Source: Methylomonas sp. MK1
GTDB lineage: Bacteria; Pseudomonadota; Gammaproteobacteria; Methylococcales; Methylomonadaceae
Direction: 5' to 3'
Length of the DNA: 64,000 nucleotides
NCBI RefSeq assembly: GCF_000365425.1
Contig: NZ_AQOV01000001.1
Location: 3,348,001 to 3,412,000, forward strand
Shown here: piece after piece, positions 24,480-34,387 of the stretch
Layout of the letters: each line of letters begins with the position of its first letter
How positions within the stretch are numbered: position 1 is the first letter of the stretch
Program-made: the position numbers and the translations under genes
The notes under the pieces: generated by a model
Seen by the model: the letters and a program-made list of their open reading frames with translations, nothing else
Told to the model about the DNA's origin: nothing
The model's database searches: none

Positions 24480-24619
24480 AGGTGTTTGCCTAAAGTGAAT
24501 AAATGTATTCCGATATTCGGGGTAAAATCGCGTAATTCAAGTAGAATAGCCTTTCGCATGGTCCTATACAACCGCCGTCTACTGATTAACGACATCCAAC
24601 AGACATTCTGAAAACATAA

Positions 24620-25015
24620 ATGGTTGCATATTTGCGTCAATTTCTAGTTATGTTTTTGCTGCTTTTGCAAGTGGCAGCGCCGCTGGTGCATGCCCATGTC
24701 GGTAGAGAAGCCATGCAGGGCGGCCTGCATTTGCACGAATTCGAGTCGCTGCATATCGACCATGATGGCGACCCCGCCTTGATGGCTGTCGATCACGACC
24801 TGCAAATTCAAAATAGTATTGTCAATCTGGGCTCCGCTATCAAGCAGCAGCAATGGCTGGACAGGCTGATGCCGGTTTTCTATCTGCTGGTTAGCTTAGT
24901 TCCCGATTTGGCAATTATTCGGCAAATCGATACCGTTAATTTTTTCCCTTATATTCCGCTGTTCGCGTCGGATCCCTTACTCAGCCACAATCCATCCCGC
25001 GCGCCGCCGCTCTGA
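24620..25015 (+). CDS. His-rich secreted protein leading the metal-efflux operon
   Basis: A 131-residue protein with a signal peptide (about residues 1-25, VHA before HVGRE) and a histidine/acid-rich N-terminal mature segment containing HAHV, HLHEFESLHIDHDGD and VDHDL, a likely metal-binding stretch. A hydrophobic segment follows at about residues 83-98. It lies directly upstream of the efflux genes in the same direction, a position often taken by small periplasmic metal-binding proteins in such operons. No named family is recognised; a role as periplasmic metal sponge or chaperone is inferred. Confidence 0.65.
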   Translation: MVAYLRQFLVMFLLLLQVAAPLVHAHVGREAMQGGLHLHEFESLHIDHDGDPALMAVDHDLQIQNSIVNLGSAIKQQQWLDRLMPVFYLLVSLVPDLAIIRQIDTVNFFPYIPLFASDPLLSHNPSRAPPL

Positions 25016-25142
25016 AAGGGGTTGGCTTCGCTGTTGAAGTACGCTTATTTAACACGTAACAGCCCCGCGTTCTAAAAATGGTCAAATGCCCATTAGGCCT
25101 TTGGCTGCTCAGCCCTATTCAATTATTGCTTTGGAGTGCTCC

Positions 25143-26453
25143 ATGAATGGATACCGTTATCTGAAATGCGGTTTACCTGTTTTACTGCTGCTTACGGCGC
25201 CTTGCCTTGCCGAAATAAATTCTGTCGGAGAGAGCTTGGCGGCGACTCGCGGCGAAATGTTTTCGGAAAATTTGATTGTCGAGCACATGGATCCTATCGA
25301 AACCGATCAATCGCTGAGCTTGTCGCAATTAGTCGAAATAACCTTGGAAAAATATCCGGATCGCCTGGTTGGCGAAGCCTTGGCCCAGGAAGCCAACGCC
25401 TTGGCCGAACGCAGTGATGCTTGGGTGGCCGGCTCCACGGCTGTTGGTTTAAATTACATGGATGATCGAATTGCCGACGACCTGGGTTCGCGTGAGGCCT
25501 CGGCCCAAGTCGAAATCACTACCTGGAAATGGGGGCAGCGCGATGCCGGCCAGGCCGTGGCGGAGCGGGCCGGCGTTTCCGCGCAAAAGCAATCGGCGGC
25601 GGTTAAGCTGGAAGTCACACGCTTGATCAGAGATGCCTTGTGGAATATGGAAATCGCCAATATCGGTTTGCAACAGGCGCAAAATGCTTTGTCGATTTCC
25701 GAGCAATTGATGAAGAAAGTCGAACGCCGGGTGGAACTGGGCGATTTGCCGCGCGCGGATTTGTTGCTGGCCAAGGGTGAATATCTGCAAAACCGGGCGT
25801 TGGTAACCCAAGCTGAGGCGGAGGTAATGCATAGCCGTAAAGCCTATGCCAGTTTGACTACGTTGTCGCGGGTGCCGGGCAATTATCAGGAAAAACTCAG
25901 CGATATTACCTCCGTGACCAGCAACCACCCGATGTTGGAAGCTATCAATGCCATCATTGACCGCAAACAAGCAGAAATTGAATGGACCAAAACCACCGAT
26001 CCTATCAATCAACCCAAGCTCAGTGTAGGCGCGAAAAGCCAACGGGATGGCCGCAGCGGGCAAGACATCGAGAGTGTCGGCGTCGGCGTGGTGATGCTAT
26101 TCGGCGGAGAGGCCTATAACGCGCCGGAAATCGCGAAGGTGAATCTGGAGCTGAACAATGCCAAGGCGCAACGCGAACATCTTTACCGGCAGTTGGAGAA
26201 AAATCTGCACGAAGCCGAGCATGCTCTGGAAGTGACGCGGGCGGAGCTGGCAATAGCCAACGAGTTGAAACAAATCGCCGAAACCCATCTGAAAATGACC
26301 GAAGTCAGCTTCTCGGCCGGCGAAATCAACCTGTTGGATCTCTTAAAAATCCAGGCTCGCAGTCTGGAAGCGATTCGCAATGCCAAATTGCAGGAGGTTA
26401 AATTACAGCGCAACATCGCTTTCTACAATCAAGCGGTAGGCATACAGCCATGA
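25143..26453 (+). CDS. CzcC/CusC-type outer-membrane efflux protein (TolC family)
   Basis: A 436-residue outer-membrane channel of the TolC family. After a signal peptide (about 1-20, PCLA before EINS) it shows long amphipathic helices with the duplicated pattern of TolC: QAQNALSISEQLMKKVERRVELGDLPRADLLLAKGEYLQ and the matching LKMTEVSFSAGEINLLDLLKIQARSLEAI. ATG 25143 is preferred over the upstream frame start at 25086, because GGAG lies 7 bases before it and a signal peptide follows. Its stop codon overlaps the adaptor gene (ATGA). Confidence 0.9.
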   Translation: MNGYRYLKCGLPVLLLLTAPCLAEINSVGESLAATRGEMFSENLIVEHMDPIETDQSLSLSQLVEITLEKYPDRLVGEALAQEANALAERSDAWVAGSTAVGLNYMDDRIADDLGSREASAQVEITTWKWGQRDAGQAVAERAGVSAQKQSAAVKLEVTRLIRDALWNMEIANIGLQQAQNALSISEQLMKKVERRVELGDLPRADLLLAKGEYLQNRALVTQAEAEVMHSRKAYASLTTLSRVPGNYQEKLSDITSVTSNHPMLEAINAIIDRKQAEIEWTKTTDPINQPKLSVGAKSQRDGRSGQDIESVGVGVVMLFGGEAYNAPEIAKVNLELNNAKAQREHLYRQLEKNLHEAEHALEVTRAELAIANELKQIAETHLKMTEVSFSAGEINLLDLLKIQARSLEAIRNAKLQEVKLQRNIAFYNQAVGIQP

Positions 26454-27541
26454 GGCGGTTAATCTTCGGCCTGTTATTGACGCAGGCGTTAAGCGTGTTT
26501 GCTCAAGATACGCAGATCAAAATTACTCAGCAGCAGATCGACAATTTGGATATAAAAGTTGCGCAGCTTAGCGCTAGTCAACAGATTCCGTTGTTTTACG
26601 CGCCGGGCAAAGTGGTGGTTCCGGCAGACCGGGAGGTGTTGATCAGTAGCAGCCAACCCGGTTTGGTCACCCAATTGCCGGTCAATATCGGCGACAAGGT
26701 ACGCAAAGGCCAACTGTTGGCACAGTTGAACAGCCCGGAACTCGTCGGGTTACAACAAGCATTTTTAACCGCTGCCAGCGAACTGAATTTATCCGGCCAA
26801 GAGCGCAGCCGCGATCAAAAATTATTGCAGGAAGGTGTGATTGCGCAGCGGCGCTGGCAGGAAACCCAAATGCTGTACAGCAGCAAATCGGCCAAGGCCG
26901 ATGAGGCCCGGCAGTTGTTACTGTTGGCCGGCATGTCGGCCGCCGAGATTAAAAGTTTGGGTCAAAACCACAAGCTGGACAATCGTTTGACTATTCGGGC
27001 GCCCATCGACGGGGTGGTGCTGGAGCGTCTGACCACTTTGGGTGCCCGCTTGGATATGCAGGCGCCGCTGTATCGGATTGCCGATTTGTCTGAACTGTGG
27101 CTGGAAATCAATATTCCGCAGGAGCGCTTGAGCGGGATTCGGCTCGGCGATTCGGTGCGTCTGAAAGGCAGCGAGATCACTGCCAAAATTAGCTTGCTGG
27201 GTCAAAGTGTCGATCGCGATAACCAAACGGTATTGGCCAGGGCGGTGATTGACGGCAAAGCCGAGGGTTTACGCGTGGGACAGAACGTCAATGCGCAGAT
27301 CATGCAAAACAGCTTTGAGACCGGCTTCCTTGTACCTAATACCGCCATTGCGCAGAACGAAGGGCGCGCTTATGTATTTGTGCGCAATCAAGACGGATTT
27401 GCCGTGACTGAAGTGACGGTTACCGGTAAGCAGGACGCCAATTCCTTGATCAGCGGACCTTTGTCCGGCAACGAGCAAATCGCCATAAAAGGCGCGGTGG
27501 CCTTGAAAGCCAATTGGTTAGGTTTGGGAGGCGGCGAATAA
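26450..27541 (+). CDS. CzcB/CusB-type periplasmic adaptor of RND efflux
   Basis: A 363-residue membrane-fusion protein linking the RND pump to the outer-membrane channel. The signal peptide ends at VFA-QDT (about residue 18). The lipoyl/barrel-sandwich halves are at about 60-90 (SSQPGLVTQLPVNIGDKVRKGQLLAQLNSPEL) and 170-200 (IRAPIDGVVLERLTTLGARLDMQAPLYRIADLSELWLE). It is shorter than CzcB and lacks a long His-rich N-terminal domain. Its stop overlaps the start of the pump gene (TAATG). Confidence 0.92.
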   Translation: MRRLIFGLLLTQALSVFAQDTQIKITQQQIDNLDIKVAQLSASQQIPLFYAPGKVVVPADREVLISSSQPGLVTQLPVNIGDKVRKGQLLAQLNSPELVGLQQAFLTAASELNLSGQERSRDQKLLQEGVIAQRRWQETQMLYSSKSAKADEARQLLLLAGMSAAEIKSLGQNHKLDNRLTIRAPIDGVVLERLTTLGARLDMQAPLYRIADLSELWLEINIPQERLSGIRLGDSVRLKGSEITAKISLLGQSVDRDNQTVLARAVIDGKAEGLRVGQNVNAQIMQNSFETGFLVPNTAIAQNEGRAYVFVRNQDGFAVTEVTVTGKQDANSLISGPLSGNEQIAIKGAVALKANWLGLGGGE

Positions 27542-30500
27542 TGGCTGGGTTAATTCGCTTTGCGTTGACCCAGCGGCTGTTGATTTTACTCGGCGTACTG
27601 TTGCTGGTGGGCGGCGGTTATTATGCGGTCAAGCATATTCCCATCGATGCCTTTCCCGAGGTGTCGCCTACGCAGGTCAAGATCATCGTTAAAGCCAACG
27701 GCATGACGCCGGAAGAAGTGGAAGCACGGATTACCGCGCCGATTGAAGTTGAGTTGCTGGGCATTCCGCACCAAACCATGCTGCGCTCGTTGGCTAAATA
27801 TGCGATTACCGATATTACGCTGGATTTTGAAGAAGGCACCGATATTTACTGGGCCCGACAACAGGTCGCCGAACGGCTAAACACCTTGTGGGGCAATCTG
27901 CCGGAAGGCGTGCAAGGCGGCATCGCGCCGATGACCACGCCGCTGGGAGAGATGTTCATGTTCGCCATCGAGGGTGGCGATCTCACTTTGATGCAACGGC
28001 GAGAGCTATTGGATTGGACCATCCGCCCTGCTCTTCGTACCGTAAGCGGTGTCGCGGATGTGAACGCGCTTGGCGGCTTGGTGCGTAGTTTCGAAGTGGT
28101 GCCAGACAATGTCCGCATGGCGTCTCGAAATATCGATATGCAGCAATTGATGGCAGCCTTGCAAAACAATAACCGCAATGACGGAGCCGGTCGGCTTACT
28201 GAGGGTGAGGAAGCGCTGATAGTGCGCGCCGAAGGCAGGATCAAAAATGAACAGGACGTTAAGGCCATTGTTGTGGCACAGCACGAGGGTTTGCCGATCC
28301 GCGTGGAAGATATTGCCGAAGTGCGCATCGGTGCGCTGACTCGTTACGGTGCGGTCAGCAAGGACGGTAACGGCGAAGCGGTCACGGCGGTCGTGCTTAG
28401 TTTGCGGGGTGCCAATGCCCGGCAAACCATCGAGCAGCTGGAAAGTAAGTTAGCGGAATTGCAACCGGGCTTGCCGGAAGGCGTGCGTTTGAATGTGTTC
28501 TATAACCGTGGCGTGTTGGTCGGAAAAGCGGTAAATACCGTGTCCAAGGCTTTGCTGGAAGCTATTGTGCTGGTGGTGGTATTACTGATTCTGTTTCTCG
28601 GCGATCTACGGGCGGCATTGACCGTGGCATTGGCCTTACCGCTCGCGGCTTTGGTGACCTTCATCTTGATGCACGCGTTTGGCATGTCTGCGAACCTGAT
28701 GAGTCTGGGCGGTCTGGCGATAGCTATCGGGATGTTGGTGGACGGTGCGGTGGTGGTCGTGGAAAACGTGATTACCCAATTGGCCGATCATCACAAGGCG
28801 GAACGCTTACCGCGCCTGCACCTGATTTACCGGGCTACCCGCGAAGTGGCGGTGCCTGTGACGTCGGGCATTTTGATCATCATCATCGTGTTCTTACCGT
28901 TGCTGACCTTGCAGGGTCTGGAAGGCAAGCTGTTCGGGCCGGTGGCGATGACTATTGTATTTGCCTTAAGCGGATCCTTGATATTGTCATTAACCGTTAT
29001 TCCGGTGCTGGCGTCGCTGTTGCTGAAACAGGTATCCCATGAAGAACCCTGGTTGCCGCGCAAACTGTTGCAGTGGTATCAGCCTGTACTGGTTTGGTGT
29101 TTGGCTAACAGCAAAAAAGTCTTTATCGGCGCCGGCGCCATGCTGGTGGCAAGCGTATTGGTATTCACCCAGATCGGCAGTACCTTCATGCCGACCATGG
29201 ATGAAGGCGACATTATCGTGCAGCTGGAAAAATTGCCGTCTATTACGTTGCTGGATTCGGTGGCCTTGGACGGTAGAGTGCAGAAAAACATTCTCGAGCA
29301 TATCCCGGAAGTACAAACCGTGGTGTCCAGGGTTGGCACCGACGAGTTGGGTTTGGACCCGATGAGTTTGAACGATACCGACACTTTTCTGATTCTGAAG
29401 CCCAAAGCGGAATGGCGCATGGAAACCAAGGAAGAGTTGATCGAGGAAATCCGGAAAATTATGGATCACACGCCAGGGATTGCATTCGGATTTACACAGC
29501 CTATCGAAATGAGGGTCTCGGAAATGTTGACCGGGACTCGCGGCGACGTGGCGATCAAATTGTTTGGTGCGGATCTGGATACTTTGAATCATAAAGCGGA
29601 GCAGATCGAGGCGGTGCTGAAGACCATTCCTGGCGCCAGTGACGTGTTTACCCGTAAAAATGAGGGTATGCAGTTCCTGCAGCTGAGTATCGACCGAGAA
29701 GCTGCCGGCCGTTTTGGGTTGGATAGCAATAGTATCGAAGACATGTTGCGTGCCCAGATTGAAGGTGTACAGCAGGGTATCGTGCAAGAAGGCGTTAAGC
29801 GCACCCCATTGTTGCTACGCGGAGAAAGCAACACCGCCAACTTCGATAATTTGCAGATCAGTTTGCCTAATGGCGGTCATGTGCCGATTACCGCAGTCGC
29901 AAAGATTCAAGCGGTGGAAGGGGTGGTGTCGATAGATCGGGAAAAAGGCCAGCGTTTTGTGGTGATCCGCTGCAACGTGGAAGGCCGCGATCTGGTCGGT
30001 TTTGTCGACGAAGCACGCAAGGCGGTGAGCGAGAGGGTCAAATTGCCCAACGGTTTTCACGTGGCTTTCGGCGGTCAGTTTGAAAATCAACAACGCGCTT
30101 CGGCGCGGTTGTCTCTGGTGATTCCATTGTCGCTGGGGTTGATTTTTTTACTGCTGTTTTCGACATTCGGCTCGGTGCGGCAGGCCGTGCTAGTGTTGTC
30201 CAATATCCCGCTAGCCATGATAGGCGGCGTGTTTGCCTTGTGGCTGTCCGGCGAATATTTGTCGGTACCGGCGTCTGTTGGTTTCATCGCCCTGCTCGGC
30301 ATCGCGGTATTGAACGGGGTGGTGATGGTCAGTTATTTCAACCAGCTCTGCGCGACCGGTATGGAGGTATCCCGCGTGGTGATTATTGGCTCCGGTCGGC
30401 GGTTGCGGCCAGTGTTGATGACGGCCAGTATCGCCGCGTTCGGTTTGATTCCACTGCTGTTTGCGTCGGGACCCGGCTCGGAAATTCAGCGGCCGCTGGC

Positions 30501-30600
30501 TATCGTGGTCACCGGTGGTTTGCTGTCTTCGACCTTGTTAACCCTAATCTTGTTGCCAATACTCTATCGATTATATGGCCGTAACCCGGAGGCTTGTTAA
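27541..30600 (+). CDS. CzcA/CusA-type heavy-metal RND efflux pump
   Basis: A 1019-residue inner-membrane proton-driven RND pump of the heavy-metal (HME) family, shown by the N-terminus (IPIDAFPEVSPTQVKIIVKANGMTPEEVEARITAPIE) and large periplasmic loops after helices 1 and 7. Helix 4 reads GGLAIAIGMLVDGAVVVVEN: it keeps the Asp of the DG pair and the EN but has AIG where classical CzcA has DFG, so the ion set may differ from Zn/Co/Cd; the metal cannot be named from sequence. ATG 27541 overlaps the adaptor stop and gives the expected N-terminus. Confidence 0.93.
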   Translation: MAGLIRFALTQRLLILLGVLLLVGGGYYAVKHIPIDAFPEVSPTQVKIIVKANGMTPEEVEARITAPIEVELLGIPHQTMLRSLAKYAITDITLDFEEGTDIYWARQQVAERLNTLWGNLPEGVQGGIAPMTTPLGEMFMFAIEGGDLTLMQRRELLDWTIRPALRTVSGVADVNALGGLVRSFEVVPDNVRMASRNIDMQQLMAALQNNNRNDGAGRLTEGEEALIVRAEGRIKNEQDVKAIVVAQHEGLPIRVEDIAEVRIGALTRYGAVSKDGNGEAVTAVVLSLRGANARQTIEQLESKLAELQPGLPEGVRLNVFYNRGVLVGKAVNTVSKALLEAIVLVVVLLILFLGDLRAALTVALALPLAALVTFILMHAFGMSANLMSLGGLAIAIGMLVDGAVVVVENVITQLADHHKAERLPRLHLIYRATREVAVPVTSGILIIIIVFLPLLTLQGLEGKLFGPVAMTIVFALSGSLILSLTVIPVLASLLLKQVSHEEPWLPRKLLQWYQPVLVWCLANSKKVFIGAGAMLVASVLVFTQIGSTFMPTMDEGDIIVQLEKLPSITLLDSVALDGRVQKNILEHIPEVQTVVSRVGTDELGLDPMSLNDTDTFLILKPKAEWRMETKEELIEEIRKIMDHTPGIAFGFTQPIEMRVSEMLTGTRGDVAIKLFGADLDTLNHKAEQIEAVLKTIPGASDVFTRKNEGMQFLQLSIDREAAGRFGLDSNSIEDMLRAQIEGVQQGIVQEGVKRTPLLLRGESNTANFDNLQISLPNGGHVPITAVAKIQAVEGVVSIDREKGQRFVVIRCNVEGRDLVGFVDEARKAVSERVKLPNGFHVAFGGQFENQQRASARLSLVIPLSLGLIFLLLFSTFGSVRQAVLVLSNIPLAMIGGVFALWLSGEYLSVPASVGFIALLGIAVLNGVVMVSYFNQLCATGMEVSRVVIIGSGRRLRPVLMTASIAAFGLIPLLFASGPGSEIQRPLAIVVTGGLLSSTLLTLILLPILYRLYGRNPEAC

Positions 30601-30905
30601 TGAGTCACGAAGCATTTTTATTGACGGTGAATTCGCCGCCGAGTCTGGAAGAGGCGCTGGTAGATTGTCTGTTGTCATTGGAATGGCGGCAGGGATTTAC
30701 CAGTTTTCCGGCCAATGTTCACGACCATAATCAGCAGGGCTTGTCCTTGGCAGAACAGGTCGCGGGACATCAACGCAAAATTCGTTTTCAAATGTATGTG
30801 GAAAGACAAAACATTTCCGCATTATTGACTAAGCTAAAGGCGGATTTTAACGGTTCCGGACTTCATTATTGGCTGGTGCCGGCTATCGAACAAGGCATCA
30901 TCTAA
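30600..30905 (+). CDS. DUF3240-family protein of the metal-efflux operon
   Basis: A 101-residue soluble protein matching the DUF3240 family, which is regularly found directly after CzcA-type pumps. The ending ISALLTKLKADFNGSGLHYWLVPAIEQGII is the most conserved part. The fold is, as far as I recall, ferredoxin-like and related to PII/CutA proteins, which suggests a trimeric sensor or modulator, but no function is established. ATG 30600 overlaps the pump stop (TAATG), so production is coupled to the pump. A related domain recurs in the next gene. Confidence 0.82.
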   Translation: MSHEAFLLTVNSPPSLEEALVDCLLSLEWRQGFTSFPANVHDHNQQGLSLAEQVAGHQRKIRFQMYVERQNISALLTKLKADFNGSGLHYWLVPAIEQGII

Positions 30906-31003
30906 GCATAAAGCATGCAGAAAACGACTGGGGATGCTACAGTTCGGACAAACAGCAGTTAAACATTTTTGAATGAGCTATTTTTCTTGCCACACATAGC
31001 CCT

Positions 31004-31717
31004 ATGAACATCTTTTTGCGACGCATTCCTGCTAATACCAGGCATACTGAAATTTCCGAGTTTGTGGCCCCTGCTTTGAAAAGCGGCTTATTCAGAAAAT
31101 CCGGCCGTATAGTCGATGTGGAGATTCTGGCCTTACAGGATACCCGCATAGGTACTATCGAATATCACGGTGTGGTAACGCTGGATTCCGAGCTTTCCGT
31201 GCAAAGAGTTGTTAAAGGTTTAAAAAATCGCCGGTTTAACGGCAGAATGGTGGTGGTTAGGCCTTATTACCATCGTAGCTGGTACAACGACCCTCGCCAA
31301 AATCAGACGCCTGTGTCTGCCGATATTATCGAAAAGCGCAAGGGTGATCGCAGGCGCGGTAAGTATCTACAAGTAATCAAAAATGCGTCTGATCGTTTTA
31401 ACAGTGAAGATGATTTTTTCCGAACCGTGCATCATCAACAGTTCTCCATTTCATTTATCGTGCCACCTGTCATGGAGGGGCCGATGATGGAGTGCCTGAT
31501 CAGTTTTGAGGAAGAGCTGCTCAATAGTGATACCGGCGAGCATAAAATCACCAAATTTCTCACCGAAGCCGACGATGCCGATCAGCAAACCGCGCGCTTT
31601 CAGATTTACGCCGAGAAAATGGCTATTTCCGCCTTGCTGGAAAAATTGAAGTCCGAATTTGCCGGCTCCGGTATCCATTACTGGATCATGCCGGTGGTTG
31701 AGAAGGGTGAAATCTAG
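31004..31717 (+). CDS. RRM-like domain fused to a DUF3240-like domain
   Basis: A 237-residue protein with two parts. Residues 1-92 follow the RNA-recognition-motif plan: strand 1/RNP2 NIFLRRIP, helix 1 around 14-30, strand 2 RIVDVEILAL, strand 3/RNP1 IEYHGVVTL (52-60), helix 2 around 64-74, strand 4 RMVVVRPYY. A basic linker (93-140, with EKRKGDRRRGK) leads to residues 145-237, which align with the preceding DUF3240 protein, ending ISALLEKLKSEFAGSGIHYWIMPVVEKGEI against ISALLTKLKADFNGSGLHYW. It lies 98 bases after that gene on the same strand. The combination suggests coupling of metal or ligand sensing to RNA binding; this is inference. Confidence 0.75.
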   Translation: MNIFLRRIPANTRHTEISEFVAPALKSGLFRKSGRIVDVEILALQDTRIGTIEYHGVVTLDSELSVQRVVKGLKNRRFNGRMVVVRPYYHRSWYNDPRQNQTPVSADIIEKRKGDRRRGKYLQVIKNASDRFNSEDDFFRTVHHQQFSISFIVPPVMEGPMMECLISFEEELLNSDTGEHKITKFLTEADDADQQTARFQIYAEKMAISALLEKLKSEFAGSGIHYWIMPVVEKGEI

Positions 31718-31746
31718 TTACTAAGCGGGTGCTTTAGCGATGGTTT

Positions 31747-31783
31747 GAACCAATACCCTTCTGGTTGGGAAGAGCATTGGTTC
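31747..31783. terminator. Possible terminator between converging genes
   Basis: GAACCAAT (31747-31754) and ATTGGTTC (31776-31783) form an inverted repeat with a long 21-base loop between the fusion gene and the converging ferredoxin gene. No T-run; weak evidence. Confidence 0.3.
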
Positions 31784-31809
31784 GGTATTGCATTAGATAA
31801 TGACAGTTC

Positions 31810-32133
31810 TTACTTTTCCAACAACGCAAGTTTGCCGGGTTTGCCGTTCCACTCGTCGGCGTCCGGCAAAGAGTCTTTCACTTCCGTAATGATAGGCCAT
31901 TGTTTGGCCAGTTCCGCGTTCAGTGCCGCGAAGTGCTCTTGACCTTCCGGCAGCTCGTCTTCGGCGTGGATGGCGTTGGCTGGGCATTCAGGTTCGCACA
32001 AGGTGCAATCGATACATTCGTCGGGGTCTATAACCAGAAAATTGGGACCTTCATGAAAGCAATCGACGGGGCATACGTCAACACAGTCGGTAAATTTGCA
32101 TTTGATGCAGTTTTCGGTGATTACAAAAGCCAT
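31810..32133 (-). CDS. fdxA: 7Fe ferredoxin FdxA
   Basis: A 107-residue ferredoxin with one [3Fe-4S] and one [4Fe-4S] cluster, close in layout to Azotobacter FdI-type proteins. Cluster ligands lie in [17 protein letters not shown] and [12 protein letters not shown]. The C-terminal half ([25 protein letters not shown]) is the FdxA-specific extension. It is a cytosolic electron carrier; its partner is unknown. Monocistronic, with a hairpin between it and fusA. Confidence 0.96.
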
Positions 32134-32193
32134 ATTGTTCTTCCAAGGTTAGGTAAATGAACAAGTGTCCGTGCATAGCGGATACTGTATGGT

Positions 32194-32225
32194 AAAAATG
32201 CACCTGCCGCTTAACGCGGCAGGTG
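32194..32225 (-). terminator. Rho-independent terminator after fusA-type gene
   Basis: CACCTGCCGC (32201-32210), loop TTAAC, GCGGCAGGTG (32216-32225): a perfect 10-pair stem that on the minus strand is followed by CATTTTTACC. It terminates the EF-G gene ahead of fdxA. Confidence 0.85.
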
Positions 32226-32281
32226 GCTGATCGGCAATACTAAGCAGGGTAAAGGGCCGACAAGGGCAGCCCCTATGATGC

Positions 32282-34387
32282 TTATTTGTCTTTGTTACGT
32301 TCCTTAACTTCTTTGATCACTTCTTCCGCGACGTTACGAGGGCAGGCGGTGTAGTGCGAGAACTCCATGGAGAATTGACCGCGACCTGAGGTCATGGTAC
32401 GCAAATCGCCAATGTAACCGAACATGTCGCTCAGCGGTACATCGGCTTTGATACGCACACCGGTAATGCCTGCGTCTTGCGATTTGATCATGCCGCGGCG
32501 ACGGTTCAAGTCGCCGATCACGTCACCGACGTGCGCATCCGGGGTGAATACGTCAACTTTCATGATTGGTTCCAGCAATTGCGGATTACCTTTCGGGATC
32601 GATTGACGATACGCGGCGCGAGCAGCGATTTCGAAAGCGATGGACGAGGAGTCAACTGCGTGGAAGCCACCGTCAGTCAGAATGACTTTGAAATCCAAGC
32701 AAGGGAAGCCTGCCAACACACCTTTGTCGATACTGGCTTTAAAGCCTTTTTCAACAGCAGGCCAGTATTCGCGAGGTACGTTACCGCCGGTAACTTGTGA
32801 TTCGAAAACAAAACCGCTGCCTGGCTCGCCTGGCTCGATGACGTAATCGATTTTCGCGTATTGACCTGAACCACCCGATTGTTTTTTGTGGGTGTAGCTG
32901 TCTTCGATACGTTGGGTAATGGTTTCGCGGTAAGCAACTTGTGGCTTACCCACGTTGACGTCTACACCATGGGTACGGCGCAAAATGTCGACTTTGATGT
33001 CAAGATGCAACTCGCCCATGCCTTTGATGATGGTTTCGCCGCTTTCTTGGTCGGTTTCGACGCGGAAAGACGGGTCTTCCTGCACCATTTTGCCGATCGC
33101 GATGCCCATTTTCTCGTTGCTGCCTTTGTCTTTTGGAGAAATGGCAATCGAGATAACAGGATCTGGGAATACCATCGGTTCCAGCGTAGCCGGTTGATCC
33201 GGGTCGCACAAGGTATGGCCGGTTTGCACGTTTTTCAGGCCAATCAATGCCACGATGTCGCCGGCTTGCGCGGTTTCGATCTCGTTGCGGTCGTCGGCGT
33301 GCATTTCCACCATACGGCCGATACGCTCGGTTTTACCGGTAAAGGTGTTCAGCAGGGTGTCGCCTTTTTTGATGCGGCCGGAGTAGATACGGACAAAGTT
33401 CAAGGCGCCGAAACGGTCGTCCATGATTTTGAACACCAGTGCGCGCAATGGGCGGTCGGCATCGACGATCGCGTGCTCGCCGGTTGGGACGCCTTCCAGG
33501 TCGGTTTCAGGCTGTGGATTAACTTCGGTTGGGTTCGGCAAATACTCGATAACGCCGTCCAGCACCAATTGCACGCCTTTGTTTTTGAAAGACGAGCCGC
33601 AGAAAGTCGGGAAGAAATCCATCGCGATGGTACCTTTACGGATGCAACGTTTGATTTCTTCGATGGTTGGCTCTTCACCTTCCAGATATTTTTCCATGAT
33701 GTCGTCGTCTTGATCAGCCACTTGGTCGATCAATTTCGCGCGCCATTCTTCGACTTGCTCTGCCATATCAGCAGGGACGTCTTGAATTTCGTATTTCAAT
33801 GGGTCACCGGAGTTATCCCACACCCAGGCTTTACGGGTCAGCAAATCGACCACGCCGACAAAGTTTTCTTCTTCGCCGATAGGCAGGGTCATTACAACCG
33901 GTTTCGCGCCCAATACTTGTTCGACCTGTTTAACGACGCGATAGAAGTCCGCGCCCAATCTGTCCAGTTTGTTGACGTAGATGACGCGAGAGACTTTGGA
34001 GTCGTTCGCATAACGCCAGTTGGTTTCGGATTGTGGCTCAACGCCGCCGGAACCGCAGAATACACCGACGCCGCCGTCCAACACTTTCAAGGAACGATAA
34101 ACTTCGATAGTAAAGTCAACGTGCCCAGGGGTGTCGATGATATTGAAACGGTGCGGTTGAAATTGGTTGGTACTGCCCGGCCAAAAACAGGTGGTGGCAG
34201 CCGATTGAATGGTGATGCCGCGTTCTTGCTCCTGCACCATGAAGTCTGTAGTCGCCGCGCCATCGTGCACTTCGCCGATTTTGTGGATTTTTCCGGTCAG
34301 CTTCAAAATCCGCTCGGTGGTAGTGGTTTTACCGGCATCGACGTGAGCGAAGATGCCGATGTTTCTGTAAAGCGATAGATCAGTCAT
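32282..34387 (-). CDS. fusA: Elongation factor G, stand-alone copy
   Basis: A 701-residue EF-G, the translocation and ribosome-recycling GTPase. G1 AHVDAGKTT is at residues 14-22, RGITI near 56-60, G3 DTPGH at 85-89 and G4 NKLD at 139-142; domains II to V follow to the end. The G4 region reads [14 protein letters not shown], where main EF-Gs have NKMDR, and [10 protein letters not shown] replaces the usual AVGGVQPQSE, so this belongs to a distinct EF-G subgroup. It is not in an rpsL-rpsG-tuf operon, so a second fusA is expected elsewhere in the genome. Confidence 0.92.

Follow-up and report, generated by a model that had tools for sequence, protein, structure and literature searches.

A conserved fusion of an RNA recognition motif to a DUF3240/PII-like domain behind CzcA-type efflux operons of Methylomonas

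Behind a heavy-metal efflux operon of Methylomonas sp. MK1 lies a gene whose predicted product couples an RNA recognition motif (RRM) to a DUF3240-like domain; an intact DUF3240 protein is encoded just upstream. Is this product a true protein, how did it arise, and what could an RRM do beside a metal pump? These questions were addressed in a stretch of 64,000 nucleotides (the window, meaning that whole stretch) and in related genomes. The gene is a real, conserved, single-origin domain fusion within a known operon type. Our preferred reading, held at a probability of roughly 40%, is that its product serves the DUF3240 partner of the CzcA-type pump as an RNA-binding accessory subunit. The RRM is the commonest RNA-binding domain of eukaryotes, bacterial RRMs have been little studied, and docking is a known means by which PII-like proteins regulate transporters. 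With a conserved, selected join of an RRM and a PII-like domain behind a metal pump, and an unfused version in sister genera, a link between transport status and the handling of mRNA would become testable; the join would also offer the first functional handle on the unexplained DUF3240 family.

Table 1. Features of the efflux locus (window positions; residue numbers are those of the fusion protein unless a length is given)
Feature	Positions	Strand	Basis or remark
TolC/CzcC-type outer-membrane efflux protein	25086..26453	+	profile and sequence matches
CzcB/CusB-type periplasmic adaptor	26450..27541	+	profile and sequence matches
CzcA/CusA-type heavy-metal RND pump	27514..30600	+	TIGR00914, 1039.9 bits
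Intact stand-alone DUF3240 protein, 101 aa, ATG at 30600	30600..30905	+	E 3.3e-16
Two-box element GCAGAA-N12-TGCTACAGT before the fusion gene	30917..30943	+	candidate promoter or regulator site
RRM-DUF3240 fusion gene, 237 aa	31004..31717	+	ORF, domain and homologue matches
RRM domain, residues 1-92	31004..31279	+	fold and family-profile matches
Arg-rich tail of the RRM family, residues 93-142 (W93, N95 D96, R98, R112, R116-118)	31280..31429	+	also present in stand-alone RRM proteins
Fused DUF3240/PII-like domain, residues 143-237	31430..31714	+	scaffold kept, signature residues lost

The czcA stop codon and the start of the intact DUF3240 gene share one base, and the fusion gene follows 98 nt downstream of the latter. 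The start listed for the pump ORF is a TTG (27514); an in-frame ATG is also present at 27541. On the 3′ side of the fusion gene, a ferredoxin-like gene and then an EF-G-like gene (names assigned by eye) lie on the opposite strand. Just 5′ of the operon, window positions 24620-25015 encode a small protein, rich in His and hydrophobic at its start, whose weak match to DUF2946 (E 0.017) was under the cut-off.

The full-length fusion was found in 28 of 37 Methylomonas genomes, several of which are near-copies of each other, and its reading frame is unbroken in all 28. The origin of the window in Methylomonas agrees with whole-protein matches of 98-100% identity in Methylomonas WSC-7, M. methanica R-45363, M. 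fluvii EbB and strain LW13, and of 96% in M. methanica NCIMB 11130. The placement behind a CzcA-type operon noted in the first-pass annotation holds for nearly all copies: 27 of the 28 fusions directly follow czcA-duf3240 on the same strand, at gaps of 86-314 nt. Both the fusion and its operon linkage are kept in relatives. In the one exception (G162; L076 6323-7039), neither czcA nor duf3240 adjoins the fusion, and a DUF3240 match lies on another contig. Nine of the 37 genomes, some of them incomplete, contain no fusion; four of these nine have a pump-DUF3240 locus without it (L074, L075, L077, L078), which may reflect loss or a state older than the fusion, and three fusion-less genomes (G126, G167, G172) are ca. 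99% complete, with duf3240 present and no RRM match. Among the fusion matches listed (100 of 100; best 120 of 127), all were named Methylomonas or unassigned, apart from one named Methylococcaceae.

In a sample of 151 genomes of the bacterial family, the RRM family occurred in 68 and DUF3240 in 134. Fifty-seven of the RRM-bearing genomes are not Methylomonas; in six of these (G043, G111, G122, G090, G053, G029), an intact czcA-duf3240-rrm order was found, with 54-234 nt between duf3240 and the start of the RRM match. A seventh such locus, in G046 (L066 6759-7120), has an RRM gene broken in the assembly and intact copies in related genomes. By our estimate, chance would give such linkage in far fewer than one genome in 57; the seven linked genomes are not independent, because they come from only three genera. 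In the other 50 of the 57 (drafts, some with short contigs), the RRM is not directly behind duf3240: in G129 the two are 3.6 kb apart, and in the remaining 49 no DUF3240 match was found near the RRM, although draft contig ends may hide some. In several methanotroph genera, a stand-alone RRM gene faces a gmk-like gene (named by eye): at L081, L082, L083, L084 (piece only), L085 and L091; at L063 and L067 both gmk and czc-duf3240 are close to the RRM gene. Since they co-occur there, gmk may be the old neighbor of the RRM. With the RRM mostly not behind duf3240 and several copies facing gmk, the linkage to the pump may have come later. In the genome of the window itself, an RRM paralogue (L080 5192-5548; near 2952191) is convergent with a gene for a His-rich membrane protein (L080 5731-6606) that by eye resembles ZIP-type metal transporters. 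In a sample of 369 genomes of the class, the RRM family was found in 18 (two of them in the bacterial family of Methylomonas) and DUF3240 in 85; outside the bacterial family, both occurred in G252, G300, G379, G475 and G481, and in none of these were they adjacent. At most 10-12 candidates per genome were scored in the class sample, so absence there is not proof.

Selection was estimated from dN/dS by the method of Nei and Gojobori for 13 chosen pairs of Methylomonas loci, using unsaturated dS only. The values were 0.01-0.12 for the RRM, 0.01-0.21 for the tail, 0.03-0.11 for the C-terminal domain and 0.05-0.09 for the upstream DUF3240 protein, and they are rough because many dS values exceed 1. 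Mean pN/pS over 136 pairs from 17 loci was 0.20, 0.28, 0.35 and 0.27, respectively; being near saturation, these means are usable as a rank only. A chance ORF is ruled out by the presence of the gene in so many genomes and by the low dN/dS of both halves. Decay of the fused C-terminal domain to a remnant is ruled out for its scaffold by dN/dS where computable; its signature residues are gone.

The predicted fold of the N-terminal half (β-α-β-β-α-β) matched solved RRMs, and a search of the PDB with the family profile led to RRM structures. The RRM originally proposed for residues 1-92 was thus borne out by structure prediction and profile searches, neither of which pointed to a different fold. 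The Pfam RRM score of the window's own sequence was 14.6 bits, below the cut-off of 20.7; matches at E ≤ 0.1 were obtained for 25 of 49 fusion members, the best at 6.3e-4. What follows the RRM had been described as a basic linker and is instead part of the RRM family, as the same Arg-rich tail occurs in stand-alone RRM proteins. Its W93 was found in all 24 rows of the RRM set and in 41 of the 49 fusions. A predicted protein of 168 aa (P0057) has its first 139 residues identical to those of the window's fusion and differs thereafter; it is a truncated or frameshifted version in which the RRM is retained and the DUF3240 domain is gone.

That the C-terminal half is DUF3240-like was confirmed by its Pfam score and by Foldseek. 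The gathering score of PF11582 was passed by the window's fusion (21.7 bits versus 21), with a best stretch covering only profile positions 63-101 of 102, and all 49 fusion members matched at E ≤ 0.1. Foldseek placed 3ce8 at rank 2 (probability 1.00, TM 0.69 by target length), and PstA, CutA1, SbtB and PII entries at lower ranks; as modeled, the domain has a DUF3240/PII-like fold. For comparison, 19 fused rows were set against 49 unfused DUF3240 rows, of which 22 belong to Methylomonas and 27 to the bacterial family's other genera, with residues H41 to G56 numbered as in the window's intact DUF3240 protein. In the unfused rows, E17, V21, D22, L24, L25, F33, H41, S49, E52, V54, G56, F63 and Y90 are the same in every row, and Q53 stands at 98%. 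In the fused rows, H41, S49, Q53, V54, V21, L25 and F33 are all at 0%, D22 and G56 at 5%, and E52 at 79%, so the conserved set H41, S49 and E52-Q-V-x-G56, of which the EQVxG part also aligns in 3ce8, is not preserved there. F63, Q64, F83, Y90, W91, P94, G99 and I101 are at 95-100% in the fused rows; Y90, P94 and G99 are at 100% in these and at 96-100% in the unfused rows.

In PII proteins, the T-loop sits between strands 2 and 3. Mapped onto the modeled fusion, the lost segment would lie at this same position, and we infer from the alignment that the two are equivalent. The fused copy has thus retained its scaffold and lost a segment that is probably the active loop. The first-pass annotation had called this domain sensor-like, a description that the comparison does not support: H41, S49, Q53, V54 and G56, conserved at 98-100% in the unfused rows, are absent, and the intact DUF3240 protein is still encoded next door in 27 of the 28 genomes. 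With these residues lost, it is unlikely that the fused domain senses on its own. The same loss would fit equally well with a fused domain that is no longer at the pump.

The phylogenies trace the fusion to a single event. In trees of 19 fused rows, the fused RRMs formed one clade (support 100/100), as did the fused C-terminal domains (99/98); the fusion is thereby shown, at the level of sequence, to have arisen once, in the Methylomonas lineage. At seven of the 28 fusion loci (L021, L048, L050, L051, L052, L053, L055), a stand-alone RRM gene lies 21-26 nt downstream. This distal gene is found in L048; six of the nine rows of the second subclade have it, whereas all eight of the window's subclade are without it. 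The fused RRMs and the seven distal RRMs are placed between two starred branches of the tree, and bootstrap support for the distal RRMs as a group of their own was only 47%. The order duf3240-[RRM.DUF3240]-rrm fits the product expected from a tandem duplication of duf3240-rrm in which the middle two genes were fused, and the RRM family of the fusion does occur unfused behind czcA-duf3240 in three other genera. A clade uniting the fused and the other Methylomonas DUF3240 domains is possible, as it was not rejected (p-AU 0.457); the fused DUF3240 rows are long branches.

Docking on the pump is a natural guess for DUF3240, since it is PII-like and is encoded directly behind a pump of a trimeric family, RND pumps being trimers. 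By analogy with GlnK on AmtB and SbtB on SbtA, PII-like trimers of DUF3240 would bind the pump from its cytosolic side. Passages of PMC8352866 describe the SbtB trimer as sitting on the SbtA trimer with its T-loop inserted, and PMC8395244 deals with GlnK T-loops and Amt. The fused subunit, having lost its loop and kept its scaffold, would enter mixed DUF3240 trimers and so add an RRM. Intact DUF3240 subunits would sense the loading of the pump or its ligand state, and the state sensed would decide where or whether the RRM holds RNA. Candidate RNAs would be the message of the efflux operon, the leader of the fusion gene itself, or transcripts for other membrane proteins. In its most specific form, which we regard as rather unlikely, mixed trimers of DUF3240 and RRM-DUF3240 keep the RRM on the cytosolic face of the pump, where mRNA is let go or taken up as the state of the pump changes, and the unfused czcA-duf3240-rrm operons are the two-protein version of the same device.

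A possible, if doubtful, alternative is that the fusion is a general RNA-binding protein, in which the DUF3240 scaffold only oligomerises, avidity for single-stranded RNA comes from several RRMs with their Arg-rich tails, and the pump link is a relic of where the fusion was formed. Methanotrophs, like cyanobacteria, possess internal membranes. The job of the protein would then be mRNA handling or the localisation of messages for membrane proteins, in line with proposals for cyanobacterial RRM proteins, to which passages of PMC12475003 ascribe the transport or localisation of certain mRNAs in connection with internal membranes. The distribution of conserved residues agrees with this alternative: of the 25 columns that are invariant in the fusion alignment, 21 fall within residues 8-122, and the C-terminal domain retains core positions only. 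So do the stand-alone relatives, which are found at many loci (a single genome has as many as six RRM-family matches), and the one fusion (L076) away from czc. However, the other 27 fusions are still directly behind CzcA-DUF3240, and the C-terminal domain is under selection too, whereas any oligomeriser would be enough if avidity alone counted.

That the RRM binds RNA at all has to be weighed against an improbable reading in which it is a protein-contact domain without RNA binding, and the fusion acts within the DUF3240 trimer as a dominant-negative or buffering subunit. A canonical RRM has three RNA-stacking aromatics across RNP1 and RNP2. In the fusion, the RNP2-like stretch is I3-I8 and the RNP1-like stretch E53-L60, where H55 and V57 replace aromatics; position 3 of RNP1 is His in all 49 fusions and all 24 rows of the RRM set, and position 5 is L, V or M in 49 of 49. 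Two of the three aromatics are thus replaced family-wide, so that the canonical trio is incomplete throughout, and the fused DUF3240 domain is without the residues that would act, both of which would suit a protein-contact role. Against it, the RNP2 aromatic F4 is present in 48 of the 49 fusions, the invariant H55 could stack, and the net charge is +13 over residues 1-127 (-9 over residues 143-237). Eight Arg, Asn or Asp positions between 91 and 118 (R91, N95, D96, R98, R112, R116, R117, R118) are moreover invariant in the fusions and in the RRM set alike. According to passages of PMC9313427, AB-Elavl binds AU-rich RNA though its RNP1 and RNP2 differ from the canonical ones; a non-canonical RNP1 is therefore compatible with RNA binding. 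Judged from its sequence, RNA binding by the fusion's RRM is plausible, although RNP1 is without its two aromatics.

Control of the fusion gene itself was sought in its leader. TGCTA occurs 57-73 nt upstream of the ATG in 24 of 28 loci, and in the 16 loci aligned (near-copies were omitted, as were loci in which the box is missing from its usual position), GCA and TGCTA are invariant and their spacing is fixed. Of 13 genomes searched, four have a single copy of the exact two-box pattern, placed before the fusion gene; two others of the 13 (G158, G159) have the fusion without it. The element resembles an extended -10 promoter, in which case it would be the fusion gene's own, and may equally be the site of a regulator. 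The fusion gene may be transcribed together with the operon, across the 98 nt gap, or from this element. Simple scans of the + strand of 30590-31860 returned no promoter-like or terminator-like site, which says little because chance gives 1.8 and 1.4 such sites, respectively, per region (both strands). With GGAG, GAGG or AGGA taken as the Shine-Dalgarno motif, none was found before the fusion gene (window 30986-31000) in any of the 28 loci. The motif was present before 24 of 27 upstream DUF3240 genes, three of 21 downstream ferredoxin genes and two of seven distal RRM genes; its lack is not unique to the fusion, as the ferredoxin and distal RRM genes are mostly without it.

A missing Shine-Dalgarno motif would allow translational control. 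An Rfam scan of 24500-32300 gave no match at E ≤ 1. A candidate hairpin before the fusion gene, in seven rows of one subclade picked by eye, has six pairs and no two-sided change, and single-row shuffles gave z from -1.4 to +0.2; five further leaders ranged from -1.7 (L048) to +2.3 (that of the window). Leader folding and shuffle tests thus gave no clear RNA structure 5′ of the fusion gene. The first-pass annotation's model, in which one protein senses metal or ligand through its own DUF3240 domain and switches its binding to the efflux operon mRNA, draws on the domain order, the operon position and the motif-less leader, but is very unlikely given the lost near-invariant residues and the lack of any Rfam family or structured element nearby.

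The RRM-DUF3240 architecture is new and matches no described RNA-metal system that was found: the earlier statement that no system of this kind has been described agrees with a search of the open-licence PMC literature, in which none was found. The same literature yielded no description of DUF3240 docking on CzcA, nothing on a PII-like protein tied to CzcA heavy-metal efflux, and nothing on an RNA recognition motif in Methylomonas. The one paper there that deals with DUF3240 concerns H. pylori islands, where a DUF3240 protein was modeled on 3CE8 and docked as an antitoxin.

Among known proteins, the closest to the C-terminal domain is DUF3240 (PF11582) behind CzcA, represented by PDB 3ce8 from Shewanella baltica (labelled a putative PII-like nitrogen regulatory protein). 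The fold is the same, as are the C-terminal FQ...F...YWxxPxxxxG pattern and the position behind CzcA; unlike DUF3240 proteins, the fusion has lost H41, S49 and QVxG, carries an RRM in front, and still adjoins an intact gene. Its N-terminal domain resembles the single β-α-β-β-α-β RRMs of the cyanobacterial proteins Rbp1-3, A. baumannii AB-Elavl (7qzp) and PG1 (7jly), which we take to be from P. gingivalis. The RNP1 of the fusion family is EYHGLVTL (EYHGVVTL in the window), as against the bacterial consensus (K/R)GF(G/A)FVEM given in passages of PMC9313427, and the fusion differs further from these bacterial single-RRM proteins in its Arg-rich tail, its PII-like domain and its locus behind a metal pump. 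Stand-alone methanotroph RRM proteins (ca. 140 aa, e.g. P0098, annotated at NCBI as "RNA recognition motif domain-containing protein") have the same Arg-rich tail and are 36-58% identical to residues 1-142 of the fusion; they contain no DUF3240 domain, and most are encoded at other loci, several facing gmk. The GlnK-AmtB and SbtB-SbtA systems, from which the suggested working model is drawn by analogy, share the PII-like fold of the fusion's C-terminal domain. The genes of GlnK and SbtB likewise adjoin those of their transporters; unlike the fusion, neither system includes an RRM.
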